DNA of 34,067 nucleotides from Actinomycetes bacterium (lineage in GTDB: Bacteria > Actinomycetota > Acidimicrobiia > Acidimicrobiales > Ilumatobacteraceae), in contig BJFW01000013.1 of the NCBI GenBank assembly GCA_014190095.1, forward strand, positions 1 through 34,067. Reading direction: 5' to 3'. The notes below the pieces were generated by a model. The model had not been told where the DNA came from and did not search any database. It saw only the letters and a list, made by a program, of their open reading frames with translations. Positions 28,408-30,485 of the stretch are shown one piece after another. The position numbers and the translations under genes were made by a program. Position 1 is the first letter of the stretch; every line of letters starts with the position of its first letter.

Positions 28408-28641
28408 ATGAATCAACCGTCTGCGAGTTCACTTGAGGGACGACTGCTTGGCCACGTTGAACAGTTTGATTTTGATCGTGGTCTGGGAATGATCTGGTCA
28501 AATGGCCAGGAGTATCTCTTTCACTGCGCCGAAATTGTTGACGGCACTCGAGACATCAACATCGGAGCATCGGTGTCATTTGTGGTTGCCCATCGTTTTG
28601 GACTAATTGAAGCATCCGAGGTAGAGAAGCTTTCGAGTTAA
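28408..28641 (+). CDS. Small cold-shock-domain-like protein
   Basis: A 77-residue protein whose centre resembles a diverged cold-shock OB fold: GRLLGHVEQFDFDRGLGMIW, then EYLFHCAEIVDGTRDINIGASVSFVV. This parallels the canonical G-x-V-K-W-F...G-F-G-x-I, FFH, and G-x-x-V-x-F pattern. The RNP1 aromatic cluster is weakened (GLGMIW for GFGFI), so nucleic-acid binding is plausible but not certain. It lies after fmt with its own -10-like box, and its stop overlaps the convergent DUF1844-like gene by 4 nt. The resemblance to CSD is pattern recognition only. Confidence 0.75.
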   Translation: MNQPSASSLEGRLLGHVEQFDFDRGLGMIWSNGQEYLFHCAEIVDGTRDINIGASVSFVVAHRFGLIEASEVEKLSS

Positions 28642-28973
28642 CTGGGCTGAACATTTCCTTTTATCTGCACGAACGCTAAGCGGATATTGGCGAGAGCTTC
28701 TCTTAGAGTGGTGAATTCTTCGCCCAAGCGTTCACCTAAACCTTCAACTACGCACGCCACGGCATCGATTGCGAGGGCTGCTTCCACCAATCGAGGAGGA
28801 CTTGCTGAGAGGTGAATGGCTGCGAGTTCATAAAGGCCCATGACATGGTTGACCACCACAACGTTGGCTGGTGTTTGGGCAATTCGGGCTCGCGCCTCGG
28901 CTAAAGCGGTTTCAGCGTCTTGGAGTTGGTCGTCAAAATCACTAGAAAAGTGGTCAGTTGGGTTGTCAGCCAT
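28638..28973 (-). CDS. DUF1844-like helical protein
   Basis: A 111-residue, mostly alpha-helical protein. After an acidic N-terminus (DNPTDHFSSDFDDQ) come a coiled-coil-prone helix (AETALAEARARI) and a conserved-looking core, VVVVNHVMGLYELAAIHL, LVEAALAIDAVACVVEGLG and LREALANIRLAFVQI. The pattern of an Leu/Ala-rich helix, an A-I-D-A motif and a terminal L-x-x-I-R-x-x-F-V matches DUF1844 proteins, which in some Actinomycetota sit beside infC. Function is unknown. It is read away from infC and appears leaderless. Its tail overlaps the cold-shock-like gene by 4 nt. Confidence 0.75.
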   Translation of the reverse strand: MADNPTDHFSSDFDDQLQDAETALAEARARIAQTPANVVVVNHVMGLYELAAIHLSASPPRLVEAALAIDAVACVVEGLGERLGEEFTTLREALANIRLAFVQIKGNVQPS

Positions 28974-28986
28974 GCCCGCTACGCTA
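28974..28986 (-). promoter_or_regulatory. Predicted -10 box of the minus-strand DUF1844-like gene
   Basis: Read on the minus strand, TAGCGT (28986 down to 28981) is followed by 7 nt and the ATG at 28973, the same leaderless geometry seen at several plus-strand genes. It supports the gene being real and expressed. Confidence 0.45.
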
Positions 28987-29081
28987 ATAGCCCAAGTGGG
29001 GAACGAGTTTCCTCCACCTGACCACAGATTTCAGTAATTCGGTGAGTGTTGCCGAGTAGCTGTCGAGTGCGTTTGGGTCGA

Positions 29082-29168
29082 ATGCGCAAGATGCGACGTT
29101 ACGCGTTGTGGGCGCTTCGGCTCTGCCGTGCCCGACGACTTCTCAAACATGCTCACCTCCACAAATAG
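29082..29168 (+). CDS. Possible 28-codon Arg/Leu-rich upstream ORF in the infC leader
   Basis: ATG 29082 to TAG 29166-29168 encodes MRKMRRYALWALRLCRARRL plus LKHAHLHK, with seven arginines and six leucines. Its stop codon overlaps the AGGAGG Shine-Dalgarno, the arrangement used for translational coupling or leader-peptide control. No strong SD precedes it, and a chance ORF of 28 codons is quite possible. Most of it would be read through hairpins H2 and H3, so its translation would open the SD. Confidence 0.3.
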   Translation: MRKMRRYALWALRLCRARRLLKHAHLHK

Positions 29169-29201
29169 GAGGCAACGCCACTTGCATAAGAGAGTAAAGC
29201 C

Positions 29202-29828
29202 ATAGCACCGCCAACAAATGAGCCACGTTTCAACGAGCGAATTCGCGCACGCGAAGTACGTCTTGTAGATGCAGATGGTTCACAGGTTGGAATTGTGAGC
29301 ATTGCCGACGCACTCGAAAGAGCGCGTGTTGCAGAACTCGATCTCGTTGAAGTCGCTTCGCAAGCAGATCCACCCGTATGTCGCATTATGGACTACGGCA
29401 AATTCCGCTACGAAGAGTCACAGAAGTTGAAAGAGTCGCGCAAGAAGACCGTGCAGATCACAATGAAAGAGGTCAAGTTCAAACCAAAGATCGGTAAAGC
29501 CGACTTCGACACCAAGGTTCGTCATATGCAGGAGTTTCTGCGTGAGGGTCACAAAGTCAAAGTCACTTTGCAGTTCCGCGGTCGCGAAGTTGCCCACCCA
29601 GAACTTGGTACCAAAATTTTGCACGCAGTAATCGAGCAATTGGGATCAGTCGCCAAGGTGGACACACACGCACGGCTTGAAGGTCGCAACATGACCATGG
29701 TTCTCTCGCCAGAAAAGAAGGCGCCGAAAAAAGCAGACGCAAAACCAGCTCCGAAAGCCCAAGCAGCACCCGCTGCAGAAGCGAAGCCGGAACCGGTAGA
29801 ACCAGTTCAAATACCGACCGAAATTTAA
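29202..29828 (+). CDS. infC: Translation initiation factor IF-3 (start proposed at AUA)
   Basis: The track starts at GTG 29295, but the conserved IF3 N-domain continues upstream (FNERIRAREVRLVDADGSQVG), and the frame is closed by TAA at 29187. Between them there is no ATG, GTG or TTG. ATA 29202, preceded by AAGAGAG, is the best start and gives 208 residues; ATT at 29241 would cut the conserved NER. The N-domain, a lysine-rich linker and the C-domain (RHMQEFLREGHKVKVTLQFRGRE) are complete. A 35-40-residue Lys/Ala/Pro/Glu tail follows. A non-AUG start suits the known IF3 autocontrol by start-codon discrimination (AUU in E. coli). Followed by rpmI and rplT. Confidence 0.9.
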   Translation: MAPPTNEPRFNERIRAREVRLVDADGSQVGIVSIADALERARVAELDLVEVASQADPPVCRIMDYGKFRYEESQKLKESRKKTVQITMKEVKFKPKIGKADFDTKVRHMQEFLREGHKVKVTLQFRGREVAHPELGTKILHAVIEQLGSVAKVDTHARLEGRNMTMVLSPEKKAPKKADAKPAPKAQAAPAAEAKPEPVEPVQIPTEI

Positions 29829-29860: not shown

Positions 29861-30058
29861 ATGCCAAAGATGAAGACATCAAAAACTGCAGCGAAGCGTT
29901 TCAAATTGACTGGCACGGGCAAACTTCGCCGTCAGCAATCAATGCGTCAGCACTTGTTTGAGCACAAGCCATCAACCCGTACCCGTCGTTTGGACGGAAG
30001 TGTTGATGTCCATTCCGGAGACGTGAAGCGCATCAAGCGTTGTCTTGGCTTGCGTTAA
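29861..30058 (+). CDS. rpmI: 50S ribosomal protein L35
   Basis: A 65-residue highly basic protein beginning MPKMKTSKTAAKRFKLTGTG and containing QHLFEHKPSTRTRRLDG, both characteristic of L35. AGGAGA lies about 6-8 nt before ATG 29861. It is the middle gene of the conserved infC-rpmI-rplT operon. Confidence 0.97.
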   Translation: MPKMKTSKTAAKRFKLTGTGKLRRQQSMRQHLFEHKPSTRTRRLDGSVDVHSGDVKRIKRCLGLR

Positions 30059-30128: not shown

Positions 30129-30485
30129 ATGGCACGTGTAAAGCGCGCAGTACATGCAAGGAAGAAGCACAAGGCAATTTTGGAAAAGGCGAAGGGTTAC
30201 TACGGTGACCGTTCACGCACATTCCGCTCGGCAAACGAACAGGTATTGCACTCAGGTCAGTACGCGTTCCGTGACCGTCGCGCAAAGAAAGGCGAGTTCC
30301 GCAGCTTGTGGATTCAGCGCATCAATGCTGGTTGCCGTCAGAACGATTTCAGTTACAGCCGTCTCATTGATGGCTTAAACAAAGCAGGTGTCACTGTTGA
30401 TCGTAAGATCATGGCCGACCTCGCAGTTCATGATCCAGCTGCGTTTACAAAGTTGGTAGAAACAGCCAAGGGAGCGCTCGTCTGA
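30129..30485 (+). CDS. rplT: 50S ribosomal protein L20
   Basis: A 118-residue rRNA-binding assembly protein starting [24 protein letters not shown], with [31 protein letters not shown] and a C-terminal [16 protein letters not shown] lies about 9 nt before ATG 30129. L20 represses its own operon in several bacteria by binding leader RNA, which is relevant to the structured region before infC. Its stop overlaps the proposed tsnR-like start. Confidence 0.97.

Follow-up and report, generated by a model that had tools for sequence, protein, structure and literature searches.

How is an infC-rpmI-rplT operon controlled when its first gene begins at AUA behind a leader of 241 nt? The question is raised by a 34,067-nucleotide stretch of DNA (the window), part of a 1.77-Mb draft genome (G000), whose closest infC relatives in public genomes belong to the Ilumatobacteraceae and other Acidimicrobiia. 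An earlier sequence-only reading had proposed a multi-hairpin leader RNA at this place. Its observation holds in part: there is indeed a leader, though the parts that matter most in it are not the ones named. The whole analysis is comparative, and most of the genomes used are drafts. On balance we favor a combined explanation drawn from sequence comparison, in which an L20-sensing leader would be joined to initiation at AUA that is coupled to a mini-ORF and open to repression by IF3. The genes of the operon are as follows.

29202 to 29828, forward strand: infC (IF3), with an AUA start and Pfam matches IF3_N and IF3_C.
29861 to 30058, forward strand: rpmI (bL35), Pfam PF01632.
30129 to 30485, forward strand: rplT (bL20), encoding the presumed ligand of the leader, Pfam PF00453.

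All 89 loci with a length of 3.3 kb or more contain both rpmI and rplT, and rplT comes after infC in every locus checked. The leader is bounded by infC and by a divergent ORF (start 28973, minus strand). The IF3 reading frame opens behind TAA 29187-29189, and ATA 29202 is the sole start-like in-frame codon ahead of the conserved IF3 N-terminus. Placing the start at the earliest in-frame GTG (29295) would cost 31 codons, conserved ones among them. ATA stands at the infC start, as ATAG or ATAA, in 135 of 135 loci of the window's family, which thus has the AUN start of IF3-autoregulated infC genes throughout. Farther relatives begin infC at ATC or ATA with a Shine-Dalgarno sequence (SD) at normal distance. 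Non-canonical infC starts occur in other bacteria (PMC5472188, PMC13009471), and an AUA start of infC has been detected in Staphylococcus aureus by ribosome profiling (PMC13009471).

The best SD of the region, AGGAGG, had been described as hidden in a stem in front of the operon. It ends 29 nt before the only usable start, ATA 29202, and so probably serves a mini-ORF, overlooked in the sequence-only reading, rather than acting as an ordinary infC SD.

29167 to 29172, forward strand: AGGAGG, conserved SD of the mini-ORF (SD1), 9 nt ahead of TTG.
29182 to 29205, forward strand: mini-ORF TTG CAT AAG AGA GTA AAG CCA TAG, seven codons and a stop, supported by its conserved start place and by control frames.

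The UAG of the mini-ORF overlaps the infC AUA in ATAG 29202-29205, the stop/start overlap of termination-reinitiation. The codon that stands 20 bases ahead of ATA is TTG in 75, GTG in 1 and ATT in 7 of the 84 distinct sequences from the family; ATG, GTG or TTG is found at this place in 76 of the 84, compared with 0 to 4 at neighboring offsets. When an SD is also required, 76 of 92 family sequences have the mini-ORF, as against 4 in each control frame, counts that come from related sequences and do not represent independent events. Mini-ORFs of 6 to 14 codons starting at ATG, GTG or TTG are also present in 38 of 66 other Acidimicrobiales sequences, and none was found in the class outgroups sampled. 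In six sequences (L112, L170, L172, L179, L183 and L184) one-base changes disrupt the TTG frame, and an in-frame ATT is found there, likewise 7 codons from the stop; were it used, it would add another IF3-sensitive start codon. For the peptide encoded by the mini-ORF, the synonymous share resembles that of other frames and gives no clear sign of selection. The conserved trait is a short frame whose start follows a good SD and whose stop falls on the start codon of infC.

It is unlikely, but still the best of the alternatives, that the leader binds L20 and the mini-ORF is untranslated. The XTG..TAG block would then be an extended infC ribosome-binding region with two SDs and a good start context, and ATAG would simply follow from the usual Ala at codon 2 (ATA GCN). 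This would accommodate the lack of synonymous bias in the peptide, the occurrence of ATAGC without a mini-ORF in L234, L261, L217 and L219, and the fact that infC's own SD (AGGAGTGA) lies inside the mini-ORF in most relatives. It fits poorly with the way the frame is maintained: TTG, GTG and ATG starts interchange and lengths differ between families, the stop is kept as TAA in two sequences where codon 2 has changed (ATAAGC; L114, L116), and a 12-nt insertion in the L026 lineage leaves the frame intact. In the window's genus, moreover, the outer AGGAGG and the frame are kept although the inner SD is degraded (AAGAGAG), so that coupling would matter more there. We think it quite probable that the mini-ORF is translated, and likely that it is coupled to the AUA.

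According to the coupled reading, AGGAGG-UUG would be where ribosomes enter; after seven codons they would terminate at UAG and then begin again at the overlapping AUA. The geometry is the -1 overlap of known stop-start coupling (PMC6728339) and of short ORFs proposed to deliver ribosomes to a downstream gene (PMC12548453), with ATAG for ATGA; unlike those systems, the upstream frame is a mini-ORF of 7 codons and the re-initiation codon is AUA. The re-initiation step could close an IF3 feedback loop because IF3 represses AUN start codons (PMC5472188) and, in Escherichia coli, re-initiation drops when IF3 is in excess, most of all where an SD is missing (PMC2268962). As in the IF3-autoregulated infC genes of E. 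coli (ATT) and Streptomyces (ATC) (PMC5472188), the start is an AUN codon, here AUA; what sets it apart is the overlap with the stop of a mini-ORF that has an SD to itself. We regard IF3 feedback on infC as probable from these features. The ATAG-overlap mini-ORF is a natural test of IF3 action on re-initiation and on AUN starts and, together with the AUA start, offers one more route to misannotation of the infC start.

What lies upstream of the mini-ORF? Alignment of infC upstream regions revealed a conserved 5' block. The parts of this region are as follows.

28980 to 28985, forward strand: TACGCT, probable -10 promoter element; a TAnnnT element is found hereabouts in 81 of 89 family leaders.
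28990 to 29084, forward strand: whole covariance-model match of the L20-leader-like putative sensor RNA (model R2, 41.8 bits, E 2e-7).
28994 to 28996, forward strand: AAG, which includes the conserved AA dimer and is separated from P1 by one base, the same place as in the RF00558 consensus.
28998 to 29015, forward strand: P1 hairpin, GGGGAA/TTCC-T-CC with one bulged T, with covarying pairs.
29016 to 29021, forward strand: P2 5' strand ACCTGA, pairing with 29073-29078, located in the sequence.
29023 to 29025, forward strand: P3 5' strand CAC, pairing with 29067-29069; P3 covaries in non-family sequences.
29067 to 29079, forward strand: GTG (P3 3' strand), CGT, TTGGGT (P2 3' strand) and C, located in the sequence.

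The layout is thus AAG, one base, P1, and then P2, with two near-invariant C-G pairs, around P3. The transcript would tentatively start near 28992, just 5' of AAG, as placed from TACGCT; the -10 assignment is itself tentative because a consensus scan gave no sigma-70 -35/-10 pair. The first hairpin of the sequence-only reading is P1, and the start it gave for the leader, 28990, coincides with that of the covariance-model match.

A covariance model built from 15 compact members with the window's sequence left out (R1) scores the window at 26.2 bits (E 0.001) and recovered 88 distinct members of its family. The refined model, R2, used 90 sequences, the window's own (L001) among them; its sole match in the window and in its genome is 28990-29084, and it detected the same element in other Acidimicrobiia. 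In the family set (88 distinct leaders), 97.4% of cells are paired and 7 of 13 pairs are changed on both sides, values reached by 0 of 500 shuffles. The non-family set, 57 distinct leaders outside model building, gives 96.9% paired cells and 8 double-changed pairs, again with 0 of 500 shuffles as high. These alignments were fitted to the model, which favors the model's structure, but an artifact is unlikely because slid controls reach 34-65% paired cells and exchanges are plainly visible in P2 (ACCCGG/CCGGGU, ACCCAG/CUGGGU, ACCUGG/CCAGGU, ACCCGA/UCGGGU and UCCCGG/UCGGGA), where 4 pairs are changed on both sides among the 88 family sequences. Covariation across relatives had been named beforehand as a test that could refute the leader, and the leader passed it.

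Folding energies are less telling. The 241-nt leader as a whole is not unusually stable when compared with shuffles (z -0.9); its conserved 5' part is more so, the folding energy of the window core being better than that of shuffles (z -2.3). Energy-only folding of this core recovers P1 and pairs the P2/P3 region differently, and hence the support for P2 and P3 is covariation. We also considered a switch in which the 3' strand of P2/P3 would pair instead with sequence farther downstream, and rejected it because such pairings were not in excess.

Every positive genome has exactly one match, which lies ahead of infC wherever the place of infC was listed. At least 68 of 246 class genomes pass R2 at E 0.01, a lower bound given the strict filters, since 59 of 85 non-family leader loci pass at E 0.1. 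The sole out-of-class match in the genome scan (L303, 29.8 bits) is regarded as a false positive because the P3 and GUGCG part is missing and there is no infC among the ORFs of its stretch. Against Firmicutes, proteobacterial and other infC loci, R2 gave no good match and a weak one in L100 (14.4 bits, E 0.25, ahead of infC).

The architecture of the element is that of a known class. With E allowed up to 5, the window still has no match to any Rfam family, RF00558, the L20 leader, included, and RF00558 at its gathering threshold has no match in seven related loci. Two acidimicrobial leaders (L241, L266) score 26 bits with RF00558, under the 58.7 cut-off; one actinobacterial infC leader (L305) is above threshold and others give weak full-length matches. 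In Bacillaceae loci, RF00558 consists of AAG, one base, a hairpin, C, and gCC..GGc around an inner stem, followed by a terminator. In the present motif, AAG, U and P1 are followed by ACCyrr..yyrGGU enclosing P3; like the Firmicutes leader (B. subtilis, PMC6097659), the motif has AAG, base, P1, two C-G pairs and inner stem in the same order upstream of infC-rpmI-rplT. It differs in its longer P2 (6 bp), in its inner loop of C / CGU and in falling below RF00558 detection; the window's family further differs in the absence of the terminator and the addition of the mini-ORF. Published L20 leaders have in common an AA dimer and two consecutive G-C pairs (PMC7247131), and both are present in the window. 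A deltaproteobacterial L20 leader candidate is alike by description, with an AA dimer and two G-C pairs split by a helix, but has another scaffold and comes from another lineage (PMC7247131).

A search for the core pattern AAG-N-P1-N(0-1)-ACC..GGU found it in 22 of 25 family leaders (2 of these 22 matches sit elsewhere than the model's match), 29 of 40 other Acidimicrobiia, 18 of 30 further class members, 26 of 36 other Actinobacteriota and 7 of 8 Firmicutes infC leaders; shuffles lead one to expect 0.03-1.4 per group. L20-leader-like cores are seen in the infC leaders of the other Actinobacteriota L305, L306, L308-L310, L312, L314, L318, L319, L326, L331 and L333, several of them followed by clear terminators, with L305 alone above the RF00558 threshold. 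The Rfam family appears to be much too narrow. To look for mimicry of the L20 site in 23S rRNA, the element was compared with H40-H41 of the family's 23S genes, and AAGTGG alone was in common; 23S was sought in the MAGs of the window's genus and none was found.

We propose that the window element is a divergent relative of the L20 leader. The sequence-only reading had recognized no known leader class, which is right for Rfam's model and wrong for the architecture. Its suggestion of an undescribed actinobacterial leader RNA agrees with the strong covariation, the single match per genome beside infC where checked and the missing Rfam match in the window; in the open-access literature we found neither an actinobacterial L20 leader nor an infC mini-ORF described.

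In B. subtilis, L20 represses the infC operon through such a leader (PMC6097659). By analogy the infC-rpmI-rplT mRNA would begin with the leader relative, and L20 in excess of 23S rRNA would bind its AAG-P1-P2/P3 element and lower expression of the operon. L20 is, on this likeness, likely to be the ligand. It is distinctly improbable that the 5' element binds IF3 itself or bL35 and that its likeness to the L20 leader is convergence. IF3 is indeed the first product of the operon and the window lies under the RF00558 threshold, but parts, order and spacing are the same as in RF00558, intermediates in other Actinobacteriota score with it, and rplT comes behind infC in all loci checked. With L20 as the leader's presumed ligand, a role for both L20 and IF3 is plausible, and the AUA start, together with the coupled mini-ORF, strengthens the case for IF3. 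A bolder version, for which we stop a little short of even confidence, makes the mini-ORF and AUA a dedicated IF3 sensor, with infC expressed mainly by re-initiation at a non-canonical codon, which would make the step sensitive to IF3 in two ways, atop an L20-sensing leader that would occur across the Actinobacteriota and so be much more widely distributed than the Firmicutes element first described, so that both ligands are read.

The step after the sensor would be an intrinsic terminator in many other Acidimicrobiia. L20 binding stabilizes a terminator in B. subtilis (PMC6097659), and a terminator-like hairpin lies between motif and infC in 21 of 58 non-family Acidimicrobiia (5.6 expected), often in GCGGACGUCGGCUUUCCGACGUCCGC form with a T-rich tail. 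The second hairpin of the sequence-only reading is present in the window at the corresponding place.

29110 to 29133, forward strand: hairpin without a T tract, at the terminator place of other Acidimicrobiia, not beyond chance across the family.

Within the window's family a hairpin resembling the Rho-independent terminator of RF00558 leaders is found in 5 of 89 leaders, with 3.3 expected. We also considered the downstream hairpin as a relic terminator and rejected this, its strength in the family being no greater than chance. As terminators are common outside the family and at chance level within, the family seems to have kept the sensor while its attenuator disappeared or gave way to something else; a Rho-dependent or translational output is possible. 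Between motif and SD1, leaders L027, L105, L108, L123, L156 and L158 have a hairpin with conserved interior CGCATnGACTTCGCGTC, whose flanks vary but stay complementary (GGTGCTC/GAGCACC, TCGGCTC/GAGCCGA, TCTGCTC/GAGCAGA). It occurs in several genera and is absent from the window's genus.

Could the output instead be masking of the SD? The sequence-only reading had the CCTCC:GGAGG stem hide the SD, with a second CCTCCAC in its first hairpin competing as a swap partner. Both copies and the stem are present in the window, and the stem is part of the predicted local fold.

29156 to 29172, forward strand: CCTCC..GGAGG hairpin over the SD (29156-29160 with 29168-29172), a species-level feature found in 8 of 112 distinct family leaders.

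We consider this device very unlikely. The stem is confined to few species, predicted SD accessibility is barely below that of the shuffled-upstream control (0.27 vs 0.30), and the masked SD is not that of infC. The second CCTCCAC does exist, at 29011-29017, but it belongs to P1/P2, and most relatives have CCCCC for its CCTCC, which leaves the swap unsupported. Least credible of all is that IF3 is made by a -1 frameshift out of the mini-ORF rather than by re-initiation. The UUG frame does have a good SD and an ordinary start codon ahead of it, and at the stop the two frames are offset by -1, but a slippery heptamer is absent: TCA or CCA stands at codon 7, and codon 6 is variable. In relatives that lack a mini-ORF, infC is started directly, at ATC or ATA behind its own SD.

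If the L20-sensing leader with mini-ORF-coupled initiation is correct, a single mRNA leader would read both an initiation factor and a ribosomal protein. The L20-interacting RNA of B. subtilis has been described as narrowly distributed to Firmicutes (PMC6097659); should the L20-leader core before infC hold across Actinobacteriota, it would be an old and common feedback element. It could also explain why some infC 5' UTRs are long and strongly expressed, as is the 326-nt one of Mycobacterium tuberculosis (PMC3207917).

Two small proteins are encoded next to the leader. The 77-aa protein at 28408-28641 (forward strand) has a sub-threshold match to the cold-shock domain (PF00313, E 2e-4, under the curated cut-off). 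The divergent 111-aa ORF at 28638-28973 (minus strand) is without a Pfam match, and a similar start region is seen upstream of infC in close relatives, so that the infC promoter region seems to be shared with a conserved gene of unknown function.
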